A stretch of 17,814 bases of DNA from NCBI GenBank assembly GCA_016186235.1, contig JACPMD010000064.1:1-17814 (forward strand). The letters are read 5' to 3'. Numbering within the stretch: the stretch's first letter is position 1; each line of letters starts with the position of its first letter. The notes beneath the pieces are model-generated. The model searched no databases, was not told the DNA's origin, and worked only from the letters and a program-made list of their open reading frames with translations. Source of the DNA: Candidatus Roizmanbacteria bacterium (lineage in GTDB: Bacteria; Patescibacteriota; Microgenomatia; UBA1406; GWC2-37-13). Below are positions 1,705 through 6,341 of this stretch, one piece after another. The position numbers were made by a program, and so were the translations under genes.

Positions 1705-4188
1705 ATGCAACAGCAACAGGGTAATTTAGATTTTGAATACCGATACGGTTTTGCGATGCCGCAAAATTATGTTTTTAAGGCAAAGAGAGGCTTAAATCAG
1801 CAGATTGTCAAAGAGATCTCTTGGATGAAGAAAGAACCTCAATGGATGACTGACTTTCGTCTAAAATCCTATGATATTTTTACAAAAAAAATAATGCCGA
1901 CGTGGGGTCCTGATCTGTCACGAATCAATTTTGACGATATCTACTACTATATAAAACCCATAGATAAACAAGCGAGTTCATGGGAAGATCTCCCAAAAGA
2001 AATAAAAGAAACCTACGATCGGATAGGAGTTCCAGAAGCTGAGAAAAAGTTTTTAGCGGGGGTCTCGGCCCAGTATGAAAGCGAAGTTATCTATGAGAGT
2101 ATTAATCGAGAATTAAATAAGCTGGGAGTAATTTTCTGCGATATGGATACTGCTCTACGAAAATATCCCCAGATCGTAAGAGAATATTTTGGAACACTCA
2201 TTCCTCCTCACGATAATAAGTTTGCAGCACTCAATTCTGCTGTGTGGTCGGGAGGATCCTTTGTCTATGTCCCAAAGGGAGTCAAAGTATCTCTCCCTCT
2301 TCAGGCATACTTCAGAATCAATGCCGAGAATTTTGGTCAATTCGAGAGAACTTTGATCATTGGCGAAGAAGGGAGTCAAGTACACTACATAGAAGGATGC
2401 CTTCCTGCAGGTGAGAAGATCTCTATAGGTCAAACATGGGCGAACATAGAGACAGTAAAACCAGGCGATTTTGTAATGACAGGAAATGGATATCTTTCGA
2501 AAGTAAGCAAGGTAATGGTGAGGAAATATAAAGGGAGAATGTATAAAATCACGCCGATTTCTCCCGTGAACTCTTTTTCTCTTACGAAAGAGCATCCCAT
2601 ATTATCAATTAAAAGAAAAGATGTTCTCGTTAAAAGAAAAATTCGAAACAACTGGCTGCCGGAAGTCGATTCAAAAAAATTAGTGAACGAAGTACCAGTC
2701 TACAGGAAAGTGACAGAACTAGAGAGAGGGGATTTTATCATCTTTCCGAAGCCAAAAAAACAATTTCTCAAACAAACTCTTCTCACCGATGAAGAGATAG
2801 AATTTCTCGGATTTTATACAGCGGAAGGGTCGCTTCATTTTCATAAGAAGCTGCGTCAGTATATTGTTGCTCTTACTTTTTCAGAAAAAGAGGAAGAGAA
2901 TATTGAAAGAGTCAAAGAATTAATTTTTAAAATAACAGGTAAAAAAGCAATGGTAGTAAAAAGCAAAGAAAAGCATGCTGTTACAATAGTTATTTATTCT
3001 CTGAAACTCCACGATTTATGCCTTAGATATGTAGGAAAACATGCATATAAGAAAAAACTAAATGATGAAATACTTAATCTGTCAAACACTCAATTAGAAA
3101 ATTTTTTCTGGGCTTATTTTAAAGGAGATGGAAATTTGTTTATTAAAACTTCTTCAGGAAGTCATTTATACAGAGCATCTACTGCTTCTTACGAATTAGC
3201 AATTCAGCTTCAAGAAATTTTGGCAAAGATCGGAATTTTTGCCAGTATGCAGTTCAGAAAGGGAGGAGAAGATATAGTATTAGGGAGAACAATCTTACGA
3301 AAAGATCAATACATCATAGCATTTACAAAACCTAAACAGTGGACTGAGGTACGAGAAACAGAAGATTACTATATTGTGCCTATAAAAAAAATAGAGGAAA
3401 CAGATTTTGATGACTTTGTATTTAACTTAGAGGTAGAGGGAGCAAATTCATACCTAGTAAAAGGCTTTGCAGTTCATAACTGTACCGCCCCCGTTTATAC
3501 TACTGATTCGCTCCATGCAGCTGTTGTAGAAATTTTTGTGAAAAAAGGCGCTCGTGTTCGTTACACAACTGTTCAGAATTGGAGCAAAAATGTATACAAC
3601 CTCGTAACAAAAAGGGCAAGGGCAGAAAAAGAAGCCTTTATGGAATGGATCGACTGTAATTTAGGCAGTCAGATTACTATGAAGTACCCGAGTGTATATC
3701 TCTACGGAGAAGGCGCAAAAGGAGAGGTACTGTCAATTGCGTTTGCTGGGAAAGACCAACTCCAGGATGCGGGCGCAAAGATGCTGCATTTTGCTCCCAA
3801 TACTTCTTCACGCATTGTCTCGAAGTCTATTTCAAAAAGTGGCGGGAGAACTTCCTACAGAGGATTAGTACAAGTCTTTCCCGGCGCGAAAAATTCTTCG
3901 GTGTATGTATCGTGTGACGCGCTCATTTTAGACAAAGAATCTCGATCAGATACGTATCCATCCATGAAAATAAAAGAAAACGATGTAACCATACAGCATG
4001 AGGCGACGGTTGAGAAGCTTGGAGATGAAAAACTCCTCTACTTGATGTCCAGAGGGATAAAAAAAACAGACGCAGAAGGGCTTATCGTGAATGGATTTAT
4101 AGAGCCGGTAGTGAGAGAAATACCACTTGAATACTCAATCGAGCTCAATAGACTTATCAATTTAGAAATGTCCGGTTCGGTCGGCTAA
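1705..4188 (+). CDS. sufB: Fe-S scaffold protein SufB precursor with an in-frame intein
   Basis: An 827-residue precursor: N-extein 1-231, intein 232-592, C-extein 593-827. Splicing would leave a 466-residue SufB, a normal length. The start MQQQQGNLDFEYRYGF is followed by the family-typical KRGLNQQIVKEIS and EPQWM, supporting the ATG at 1705. The N-extein contains WSGGSFVYVPKGVKVSLPLQAYFRIN and ends VHYIEG; the C-extein resumes CTAPVYTTDSLHAAVVEIF, so the interrupted site is EG/CTAP. The first C-extein residue, C593, is the conserved SufB cysteine implicated in accepting sulfur (E. coli Cys254 by family knowledge). The second scaffold cysteine, C737 in VYVSCDA, corresponds to E. coli Cys405. 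Also intact are IQHEATVEKLG (763-773) and the C-terminal MSRG...VNGFIEPVVREIP signature. SufB assembles nascent clusters with SufC and SufD; here it can only do so if the intein is removed. Confidence 0.97.
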   Translation: MQQQQGNLDFEYRYGFAMPQNYVFKAKRGLNQQIVKEISWMKKEPQWMTDFRLKSYDIFTKKIMPTWGPDLSRINFDDIYYYIKPIDKQASSWEDLPKEIKETYDRIGVPEAEKKFLAGVSAQYESEVIYESINRELNKLGVIFCDMDTALRKYPQIVREYFGTLIPPHDNKFAALNSAVWSGGSFVYVPKGVKVSLPLQAYFRINAENFGQFERTLIIGEEGSQVHYIEGCLPAGEKISIGQTWANIETVKPGDFVMTGNGYLSKVSKVMVRKYKGRMYKITPISPVNSFSLTKEHPILSIKRKDVLVKRKIRNNWLPEVDSKKLVNEVPVYRKVTELERGDFIIFPKPKKQFLKQTLLTDEEIEFLGFYTAEGSLHFHKKLRQYIVALTFSEKEEENIERVKELIFKITGKKAMVVKSKEKHAVTIVIYSLKLHDLCLRYVGKHAYKKKLNDEILNLSNTQLENFFWAYFKGDGNLFIKTSSGSHLYRASTASYELAIQLQEILAKIGIFASMQFRKGGEDIVLGRTILRKDQYIIAFTKPKQWTEVRETEDYYIVPIKKIEETDFDDFVFNLEVEGANSYLVKGFAVHNCTAPVYTTDSLHAAVVEIFVKKGARVRYTTVQNWSKNVYNLVTKRARAEKEAFMEWIDCNLGSQITMKYPSVYLYGEGAKGEVLSIAFAGKDQLQDAGAKMLHFAPNTSSRIVSKSISKSGGRTSYRGLVQVFPGAKNSSVYVSCDALILDKESRSDTYPSMKIKENDVTIQHEATVEKLGDEKLLYLMSRGIKKTDAEGLIVNGFIEPVVREIPLEYSIELNRLINLEMSGSVG
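2398..3480 (+). mobile_element. SufB intein with LAGLIDADG homing endonuclease domain
   Basis: A 361-residue protein-splicing element. Splicing block A starts at C232 (CLPAGEKISIG). Block B is FSLTKEHPI, with the T-x-x-H residues T294 and H297. The C-terminal block F/G reads FVFNLEVEGANSYLVKGFAVHN (given in two parts: FVFNLEVEG, then ANSYLVKGFAVHN) and ends in the catalytic His-Asn, followed by Cys+1. All class 1 splicing residues (C1, block-B T and H, penultimate H, terminal N, C+1) are therefore present. Between them sits a two-motif LAGLIDADG endonuclease: LGFYTAEGS (368-376, acidic E374) and FFWAYFKGDGN (467-477, acidic D475). Both acidic residues are kept, so it may still be an active homing enzyme. 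By hand count the intein uses CGN codons for 4 of 15 arginines against 10 of 21 in the exteins, a small difference consistent with separate origin but not proof. A mycobacterial SufB intein is known at what I believe is the same site. Confidence 0.95.
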
Positions 4189-4194
4189 ATACCG

Positions 4195-4755
4195 ATGTTA
4201 AAACAAAACATCATCAATCTTAACAAACTTAAGATAAAGTCTCTTAAATTGGCAAAAGCAGGGAGGTACGTCGTATTTTTTAAAAATCTCGATGGAAGAT
4301 TTGTCTTTGAATTGATGTCAGCAAACATTCACCTTGATATCTATGGCCTTTTTATAGGAAAAAATAAAGATCAGTATAAAGTGGAGACTATTCAATACCA
4401 TAAGGCCCCTTCTTCAACGTCGAATCTTTTAATAAAAGGTGTGTTTGACGACGAGTCAAAATTTTATTATCAAGGGCTCATTCGGATCGAAAAAAAAGCA
4501 CAAAAAAGTCACGCCTATCAAAAGAATCAAAACCTCATTTTATCTCCAAACACCTATGTTGAGTCAAAACCCTATCTTGAGATTCTTGCCAACGACGTCT
4601 TTTGTACACACGGATCAACAACAGGCAAATTAAATGAAGACGAGCTTTATTATATGCAGACAAGAGGTTTGAACAAAAGCATTGCGAGAGAATTATACAT
4701 CGATGGTTTCATCGCGGACATTTTTGATAAAATCAAGAAAACCTCATATGATTGA
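4195..4755 (+). CDS. sufD: Short SufD-like Fe-S assembly protein
   Basis: A 186-residue SufD-family protein, less than half of a typical SufD (about 400-430). What remains is a stretch of beta-helix core (about 20-125) and the diagnostic C-terminal segment KPYLEILANDVFCTHGSTTG (125-144), then LNEDELYYMQTRGL (146-159) and the terminal helix GFIADIF, which in SufD binds SufC. C137 and H139 match E. coli Cys358 and His360; His360 is the SufD residue that pairs with SufB Cys405 in cluster assembly. The N-terminal domain is missing, but the reading frame is intact with no sign of a frameshift, so it looks like a reduced family member rather than a fragment. The ATG is 6 bases after the sufB stop; its end overlaps sufS by 8 bases (ATGATTGA). 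Confidence 0.9.
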   Translation: MLKQNIINLNKLKIKSLKLAKAGRYVVFFKNLDGRFVFELMSANIHLDIYGLFIGKNKDQYKVETIQYHKAPSSTSNLLIKGVFDDESKFYYQGLIRIEKKAQKSHAYQKNQNLILSPNTYVESKPYLEILANDVFCTHGSTTGKLNEDELYYMQTRGLNKSIARELYIDGFIADIFDKIKKTSYD

Positions 4756-5974
4756 CCCGAAATTACTCAAAAAAGACTTTCCTATTTTTCAAAGCCATCC
4801 TGATTTGGTATATCTTGACTCCAGCGCTACTTCTCTGAAACCTCGTTCTGTTATCGAGAAGGAAAGAGAGTATTACGAAGAGTATAGCGCGAATGTTTTT
4901 AGAGGTCTGTATCAGATTTCAGAAAAAGCTACTGAAGAGTATGAGGAATCGAGAAGTGTAGTGGCCACATTTATCAATGCAAAAAATCCTGATGAAGTCA
5001 TATTCACGAGAAATGCATCTGAATCATTGAATCTTATTGCCTATTCATTAGGAAGGAAAATTATGAAAAGCGGAGATGAAATCGTAACCACCATTATGGA
5101 ACATCACTCAAATTTTGTCCCTTGGCAGCAGCTAGCTTTGGAAAATGGCGGAATATTTAAAGTGATCGATATCAATGAAGAAGGGGCTCTGCCTCTAAAA
5201 GCGTTGGAACAGATAATTTCCAAGAAAACAAAGATTTTCGCCCTCACCCATATCTCAAATGTACTAGGAGTGATAAATCCAGTAGAAAAAATTGCCACTC
5301 TAGCTAAAAAGATCAATCCGAATATTATTATTGTCGTAGACGCTGCTCAATCGATTCCACATATGAAAGTCGATGTGCAGCAGTTAGGCTGCGATTTTAT
5401 CGCTTTTTCCTCTCACAAAATGCTCGGGCCAACGGGCGTCGGTGTACTCTGGGGCAAATATGCAATTCTTGACCAAATGTTTCCATTTCAGTATGGTGGA
5501 GAAATGATCGAAGAAGTCTACGTAAATAAAACGGTCTTTAAAAAACCGCCGCTTAAATTTGAAGCAGGGACTCCGCATATTGCAGGCGTAATTGCTCTAA
5601 AAGAGGCCGTTAATTATCTCAAAAAAATAGGCATTGAAAATGTCCGAAAACATGAAAAGACTCTCGTATCGTATGCGTATCGGCGTTTAAAGGAGACATT
5701 TTCAGATGGAATACATATTACTGGCCCACGCATAGCGCAAGAAAGAGGAGGAATTCTCGCTTTTACCTTTAAGAATTACCACCCTCATGATATTGCTCAG
5801 ATCCTTGATGAAGAACATATTGCAGTTCGGGCTGGCCATCATTGTGCAATGCCGCTTCATCAAAGGTTAAAACTCAATGCCACAACGAGGGCAAGCCTTT
5901 ATGTCTACAATACAAAAGAAGATGTAGATAAACTAGTTGATGGGTTAAAAAAGATAGAAAGAATGCTTAAGTAA
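4748..5974 (+). CDS. sufS: Cysteine desulfurase SufS
   Basis: A 408-residue PLP-dependent, group II cysteine desulfurase. It converts L-cysteine to alanine and a protein-bound persulfide for Fe-S assembly. Motifs: YLDSSATSLKP near 20-30, TRNASESLN, TTIMEHHSNFVPWQ (cofactor-stacking His), VVDAAQSIPH (PLP-binding Asp), SSHKMLGPTG with the Schiff-base Lys K224, and VRAGHHCAMPL with the catalytic persulfide Cys C366 on the short type II loop. The start MIDPKLLKKDFPIF matches the family N-terminus; an upstream ATG at 4682 in the same frame would add 22 residues read through sufD and is rejected. The gene overlaps the sufD stop by 8 bases, implying coupled translation. The sulfur acceptor is probably the SufU encoded next, since no SufE is seen. 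Confidence 0.97.
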   Translation: MIDPKLLKKDFPIFQSHPDLVYLDSSATSLKPRSVIEKEREYYEEYSANVFRGLYQISEKATEEYEESRSVVATFINAKNPDEVIFTRNASESLNLIAYSLGRKIMKSGDEIVTTIMEHHSNFVPWQQLALENGGIFKVIDINEEGALPLKALEQIISKKTKIFALTHISNVLGVINPVEKIATLAKKINPNIIIVVDAAQSIPHMKVDVQQLGCDFIAFSSHKMLGPTGVGVLWGKYAILDQMFPFQYGGEMIEEVYVNKTVFKKPPLKFEAGTPHIAGVIALKEAVNYLKKIGIENVRKHEKTLVSYAYRRLKETFSDGIHITGPRIAQERGGILAFTFKNYHPHDIAQILDEEHIAVRAGHHCAMPLHQRLKLNATTRASLYVYNTKEDVDKLVDGLKKIERMLK

Positions 5975-5975
5975 T

Positions 5976-6341
5976 ATGTCAATCTACCAGGATCTTATCC
6001 TCGATCATTACCGAAATCCGCACAATTTTGGCCCACTAAAAAAAGCAACAGCGAAATATTCGCTTATGAATCCTTTATGCGGCGATAAAATCGAGATACA
6101 GGTAGTAATTAAGAAGGATACATTAACAGCTGTGCGATTTTTAGGTGAAGGATGCGTCATTTCAAAAGCGTCTGCATCCATGCTTACTGATTTTGCACAA
6201 GGAAAAAGTCTTAATCAATTGAAAGCGCTCGATACACAGTTTATACTTAAGATGTTGGGCGTATCCTTAAGTCCAAACAGAGTAAAATGCGCGCTTTTGC
6301 CTTTAGAGGTATTACATAAGTTAGTAGTAAAAAATGGATAA
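5976..6341 (+). CDS. sufU: SufU-type sulfur-transfer/scaffold protein
   Basis: A 121-residue IscU/SufU-fold protein. The N-terminal IYQDLILDHYRNPHNFG (3-19) is diagnostic. The likely zinc- and sulfur-handling residues are C35 and D37 in NPLCGDKI, C60 in GEGCVISKASASML, and C105 in RVKCALLP. The neighbouring type II desulfurase SufS fits the Gram-positive pattern in which SufU is the zinc-dependent persulfide acceptor. SufU is usually near 140-150 residues; this copy is shorter, with the region between C60 and C105 compact, so a scaffold-like IscU role cannot be excluded. It starts 1 base after the sufS stop, without a clear Shine-Dalgarno, and overlaps the ferredoxin start by 8 bases (ATGGATAA). 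Confidence 0.93.
   Translation: MSIYQDLILDHYRNPHNFGPLKKATAKYSLMNPLCGDKIEIQVVIKKDTLTAVRFLGEGCVISKASASMLTDFAQGKSLNQLKALDTQFILKMLGVSLSPNRVKCALLPLEVLHKLVVKNG

Follow-up and report, generated by a model that had tools for sequence, protein, structure and literature searches.

The sufB gene of a Candidatus Roizmanbacteria bacterium is split by an intein at the codon of the cysteine through which sulfur enters SufB, which raises the question of whether this intein controls iron–sulfur (Fe–S) cluster assembly or is a mobile element in a site that suits it. The window, by which we mean the whole stretch of 17,814 nucleotides that was analysed, lies on contig C41 of an 820-kb genome that is 80% complete; all of its features described here lie on the forward strand. 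It encodes the SufB precursor as one open frame of 827 amino acids (1705–4188), consisting of an N-extein of 231 amino acids that ends in HYIEG (1705–2397), an intein of 361 amino acids, or 361 codons (2398–3480), and a C-extein of 235 amino acids plus the stop codon (3481–4188). The first-pass annotation had described an intein that divides SufB exactly at its sulfur-handling cysteine, an 827-residue precursor with an expected 466-residue product, and cysteine nucleophiles at C1 and C+1. All of this was confirmed, the insertion to the base: it lies between EG and CTAP, the exteins add up to a predicted spliced SufB of 466 amino acids (231 + 235), and the spliced junction peptide expected from this protein is HYIEGCTAPVYTTDSLH (...HYIEGCTAPVY...).

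An intein at the sulfur-entry cysteine of SufB

The precursor scored 691.8 bits with the SufB equivalog profile TIGR01980 (cut-off 346.4), of which positions 2–224 align with the N-extein, and it matched SUFBD_core at 1.4e-80. An HMMER alignment to 5awf_A placed precursor residue C593, the C+1 residue (codon TGT, 3481–3483), opposite E. coli SufB residue 254, as had been proposed for it. Just two columns of the SufB alignment are Cys in 90% of rows or more; they correspond to residues 232 and 376 of the spliced protein, and both are Cys in 71 of 71. By alignment these are the equivalents of E. coli Cys254, the sulfur-entry cysteine, and Cys405 (precursor C737; codon 3913–3915). The junction between EG and the Cys254 equivalent is the site at which the M. 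tuberculosis SufB is interrupted. Sixteen other bacterial genomes and one viral contig have inserts of 355–390 amino acids at the same junction, so the insertion is not a matter of chance.

The intein carries the residue set of a class 1 intein: Cys1 as first nucleophile (codon TGC, 2398–2400), a block B TxxH sequence motif (T63–H66; 2584–2595), the penultimate His360 (3475–3477) and terminal Asn361 (AAC, 3478–3480), and the C+1 cysteine. Cys1 is conserved in 17 of 17 bacterial copies, and the splicing residues are likewise present in the 16 bacterial copies other than that of the window. The profile TIGR01443 (intein_Cterm) scored 20.6 bits against a cut-off of 15.6, and Intein_splicing scored 34.5 bits, slightly below its cut-off of 35.8. 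LAGLIDADG_3 matched the precursor at 5.1e-8, and two LAGLIDADG motifs were recognized, each with its acidic residue: E143 in GFYTAEGS (2824–2826) and D244 in AYFKGDGN (3127–3129). Both acids are retained in all 17 bacterial copies, a count taken from the sequences themselves; the motif-1 pattern overlooked four copies that read VGYYLAEG. AlphaFold2 modelled the intein as a splicing (HINT) domain plus an endonuclease (pLDDT 85.5, pTM 0.83), and Foldseek matched this model to TliVMA (7qsu; E = 3.6e-17) and PI-SceI (1vde_A; E = 2.4e-14). The TliVMA, PhoVMA and PI-SceI inteins resemble the window intein in overall splicing and LAGLIDADG fold, but share 11–18% identity with it and lie in other host proteins. 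A search of the intein sequence against PDB sequences returned a single irrelevant match (E = 0.76), and a model of the full precursor (pLDDT 72.1, pTM 0.50, below 50 at the junctions) was too poor to interpret.

In the reaction expected from these residues, an N–S acyl shift at C1 would be followed by transthioesterification by C+1, cyclization of Asn361 and an S–N shift. The spliced product would be an ordinary SufB of 466 residues, its cysteine restored.

Distribution and history of the SufB inteins

Related genomes were searched for sufB with and without the insertion, as the first-pass annotation had advised, and both forms were found. In the window's family, 64 of 72 genomes matched the precursor, and four of these (G000, G032, G033 and G057) have an intein at the EG|C junction; the 64 include one genome that apparently matched through an intein in another gene only (G018) and one with an intein at another SufB site (G063). 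Of the 373 genomes sampled from the class, 187 had a SufB match, defined as the C-terminal half at E ≤ 1e-20, and 15 of the 187 have an intein at EG|C. Together with G032 and G125, the latter from another class, this brings the bacterial copies at EG|C to 17: 11 in a core clade (355–365 amino acids) and six in a second clade (379–390 amino acids; split 100/100). The EG|C site of SufB has been invaded recurrently in Patescibacteria, by two intein clades. This kind of intein is already known from mycobacteria, and what looks new is its occurrence in several small uncultured bacteria and on one phage-like contig; in the open-licence literature we found no paper that joins inteins with Patescibacteria under that name. 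With two clades and a phage-like copy, the sulfur-entry cysteine of SufB is a recurrent intein target far beyond mycobacteria.

Three further inteins occupy two other SufB sites. One site, AQYE|...HN|SEVVY, is occupied in G063 (L036) and G614 (L157), which belong to two families, and the other, NLG|...HN|SRLTM, in G316 (L101), whose SufB has two inteins, the second being at EG|C. Like those at EG|C, these inteins are full-length and end in HN, followed by an invariant or near-invariant residue; unlike the Cys at EG|C, C+1 is Ser at both sites. In another relative, G717, the SufB frame stops past the junction and resumes in another frame, through mutation or assembly error. Among plasmids, 151 records matched the precursor and none covered 80% of it, and among named phages 15 records had weak intein matches, most of them annotated as other proteins.

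The SufB tree comprised 71 of 73 rows, two partial rows having been dropped. On this tree, the presence of the intein needs 12 changes, at least nine of them forced by well-supported (starred) branches, in counts that do not separate gain from loss. Shuffled labels needed a mean of 13.8 changes, and 69 of 500 shuffles were as low as 12, so the intein label is nearly as scattered as expected by chance. For 11 core copies, the intein data rejected the SufB topology (AU p = 1.25e-5) and the SufB data rejected the intein topology (AU p = 6.4e-4). The clearest case of conflict between the two trees is that of G513 and G593, which lie in one seven-row SufB clade (100*) and carry inteins of two different clades (split 100/100). 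The other five rows of this SufB clade, including G520 next to G513, are intein-less. The nearest rows of G513 and G593 in the full tree, G520 and G161, are likewise without the intein, and the two appear as direct sisters (100/100) only when intein-bearing rows are analysed alone. No co-conversion tract was visible in a comparison of G513 with G520.

Inteins show roughly twice the divergence of exteins, and the distances of the two correlate (Mantel r = 0.66, p = 0.0008), so common descent followed by losses may account for part of the intein history. Recent transfer among the first six copies was not seen: in 15 of 15 pairs the inteins (42–62% identity) are less alike than the exteins (68–80%). 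Intein exchange has happened, though not recently among the copies compared. The SufB of G125 (L112), from another class, groups with that of G057 of the window's family (93 SH-aLRT), as if sufB may have moved together with its intein.

Viral contigs contained 72 SufB loci, one of which has a frame of more than 600 amino acids. This locus (L258, 2971–5460), on the 111,848-bp contig IMGVR_UViG_3300020057_000035, encodes a SufB with a 359-amino acid core-clade intein at EG|C...HN|CSSP. The extein groups on a long branch with 11 SufB rows of other viral contigs and is separated (99*) from almost all Patescibacteria rows; its best plain identity is 64%, to a Patescibacteria row (G614). From its gene content, we read this contig as a putative phage. 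It has phage-type replication and RNA-repair genes, encoding a primase, a DnaB-like helicase, a phage DNA polymerase, a polynucleotide kinase and RNA ligases, one of which holds part of another intein, along with a thymidylate synthase and an A-type Fe–S carrier. No structural gene was among the proteins scanned, no PF03237 (Terminase_6N) terminase matched at E ≤ 1, and sufC was not found on the contig. On the evidence of the phage-like copy, the intein seems able to move out of its bacterial lineage, and phages may be what carries it between hosts. Records of named phages matched the viral SufB in 32 cases, none covering 80% of it in one place. The gene for the A-type carrier lies near the intein-bearing SufB. 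At 53 of the 72 viral loci the SufB match starts no more than 100 bases from the contig end, as if prophages often adjoined sufB; this placement may reflect an integration site or an effect of trimming.

The suf cluster and possible redox control

The genes of the cluster are ordered Rrf2, sufC, sufB, a short sufD, sufS, sufU, ferredoxin, and the alpha and beta subunits of a 2-oxoacid:acceptor oxidoreductase. The first-pass annotation had placed an Rrf2 Fe–S sensor at its head. The family assignment held, as the first gene (573–974) encodes a protein with three cysteines (CX6CX5C) that matches PF02082 at 1.7e-19; its scores fall below the cut-offs of TIGR00738, TIGR02944 and IscR, and the label of Fe–S sensor is therefore conjectural. 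It is followed by sufC (967–1695; TIGR01978, 240.6 bits, cut-off 212.8) and, after sufB, by the genes for a 186-amino acid SufD-like protein with the core domain only (4195–4755; PF01458, 4.5e-43; TIGR01981, 158.2 bits, below the cut-off of 222), the cysteine desulfurase SufS (4748–5974; TIGR01979, 563.9 bits, cut-off 475.1) and SufU (5976–6341). This last is the only NifU_N match in the 80% complete genome, in which one sufB was found. The SufD-like protein is without its N-terminal part, and the corresponding frames of relatives are about 190–220 amino acids long. An Rrf2 gene precedes sufC in all three intein-bearing genomes of the family that have upstream DNA (G000, G032 and G033). Counting matches up to 3 kb upstream (E 1e-5), it does so in 8 of the 13 intein-bearing genomes with upstream sequence, although not adjacently in G513 and G593, and the contig ends there in four more. 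Of 20 family genomes examined that have no intein, 13 show the same arrangement (E 1e-4), so the intein and the regulator are not paired.

The SufB intein of M. tuberculosis has the same insertion point as that of the window. As described in PMC8891592 and PMC8735848, the N-extein of this SufB (Pps1) is 252 amino acids long, and residues 251–254 read EGCL, with Cys as C+1. The two inteins are alike in site, in length (359 versus 361 amino acids) and in the endonuclease domain and canonical residues as described. The suf operon opens with a regulator gene in both bacteria, which belong to different phyla: a SufR homologue, Rv1460, in M. tuberculosis (according to PMC6034842) and an Rrf2-family gene in the window. 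According to PMC8529194, which cites Huet 2006 and Topilina 2015, the unspliced intein prevents M. tuberculosis SufB from binding SufC and SufD; by analogy, unspliced SufB would be expected to be inactive here, in agreement with the first-pass annotation. The stress-sensitive splicing that it mentioned for the mycobacterial SufB intein is also on record: oxidants are reported to produce a C1–C+1 disulfide, with build-up of precursor or N-cleavage (PMC8529194; also PMC6195587). By the account in PMC6195587, three class 1 inteins of M. tuberculosis differ in oxidant sensitivity, which is not universal in the class. These data on splicing and redox concern the mycobacterial intein. Having Cys at both C1 and C+1, the window intein could possibly form the same disulfide, and sensitivity to oxidants may follow from thiol chemistry alone. 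Only C1, C+1 and C737 are invariant among 11 precursors, which revealed no extra invariant redox cysteine; such a residue is dispensable if C1 and C+1 pair with each other.

We put the probability at roughly 85% that sufB in the window is interrupted, at the sulfur-cysteine codon, by a full-length, canonical class 1 intein that is mobile and whose LAGLIDADG homing endonuclease is apparently intact, and that any oxidant effect is a by-product. As DNA, it would be an element that has repeatedly entered, and been lost from, the EG|C site. This site suits an intein because its sequence is nearly unchangeable, a Cys is available as C+1, and imprecise deletion should not be tolerated. As protein, it would have to splice for SUF to function, and oxidant effects would be by-products unless shown otherwise. 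The findings best fit a mobile element that sits at an invariant cysteine, and we infer that the intein splices, that its endonuclease is active and that it has been transferred by homing. Inheritance from an old ancestor with many losses and little or no homing is improbable: although the correlated distances, the roughly twofold faster divergence of inteins and the inability of change counts to tell gain from loss would fit it, the two topologies reject each other, one SufB clade contains inteins of two clades, and core-clade copies occur in another class (G125) and on the phage-like contig. Least credible is a degenerating, non-splicing insertion that leaves sufB inactive. The complete frame and catalytic residues of the window copy, the same residues in the 16 other bacterial copies and the finding of a single sufB in the genome outweigh the Intein_splicing score just under its curated cut-off and the broken frame of G717.

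It is also unlikely that the intein serves as a post-translational redox switch, in which oxidants would join C1 and C+1 and SufB would stay unspliced until reduction, on top of Rrf2 control. No cysteine beyond those noted is invariant in 11 precursors, 17 of 17 bacterial copies still have both endonuclease acids, four of 64 matching family genomes have the intein at the site, and the regulator keeps no company with it (13 of 20 intein-less and 8 of 13 intein-bearing operons); to block an Fe–S scaffold under oxidative stress is, by reasoning, not obviously useful either. These points are set against the two cysteines, the oxidant-induced disulfide and blocked SufC/SufD binding of the same-site intein of M. 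tuberculosis (as described in PMC8529194), the Rrf2 gene before sufC in G000, G032 and G033, and the fact that a single SufB and a single NifU_N scaffold were seen in the 80% complete genome, so that splicing would gate the pathway. The two-layer redox control of the first-pass annotation has a parallel in M. tuberculosis, where Rv1460 is first in the suf operon (according to PMC6034842). Site and residues stand as described; as an evolved function here the control is not supported, given the patchy occupancy, retained acids, cysteine pattern and intein-less Rrf2 operons. Redox control of the window's SufB is possible, without specific support; we saw no sign in the sequences that it has been selected for, and we infer that the intein has no selected regulatory role. 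Intein-bearing and intein-free relatives provide material for asking whether a SufB intein carries a cost or has any regulatory effect.

Related inteins at cysteines of other proteins

Inteins of the same phylum were also gathered from other proteins with the SufB intein sequence or profile as query, which biases the sample. Their identity to the SufB intein is 23–32% where given, and their C+1 is a conserved-looking host cysteine, presumably a catalytic residue or metal ligand. Full-length inteins lie in NifU_N scaffolds at GNP(I/V)|C...HN|CGD (L068, 1219–2742, and L096, 640–2172; G267 and G528). Other inteins lie in a UDP-glucose dehydrogenase at GGK|C...HN|CFPKD (L083) and in a radical SAM protein at CAF|C...GN|CQN (L094); the hosts of all four were identified by Pfam. 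Further ones lie in OFOR beta proteins at CPG|C...HN|CGDFG (L086 and L093; host by Pfam for L086) and in a DnaG-like protein, named by eye, at HCFG|C...SN|CGKGGD (L092). PMC5874633 states, of replication and repair proteins, that inteins are often located in catalytic or ligand-binding sites. Given this remark and the related inteins at host cysteines, it is unsurprising for an intein that C+1 falls on the sulfur cysteine of SufB, and no regulatory reason is needed.

C+1 is the cysteine that is persulfide-charged in the SUF relay, so splicing would be blocked if a persulfide were transferred to it in the unspliced precursor; splicing would then read sulfur flux and not only oxidants. We consider this very unlikely. 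If it were true, the NifU_N and phage SufB inteins would put several sulfur-relay steps under self-timed maturation. Redox or sulfur control in these small-genome bacteria would be independent support for SufB inteins as selected sensors; if there is no such control, chemistry would seem a better account of the mycobacterial case than adaptation.

The window's own genome has a second intein, at PAH|C...HN|CWTPW (G000:C26; L002, 391–2877). Pfam recognized the intein only, and we take its host to be an EndoQ-like protein.
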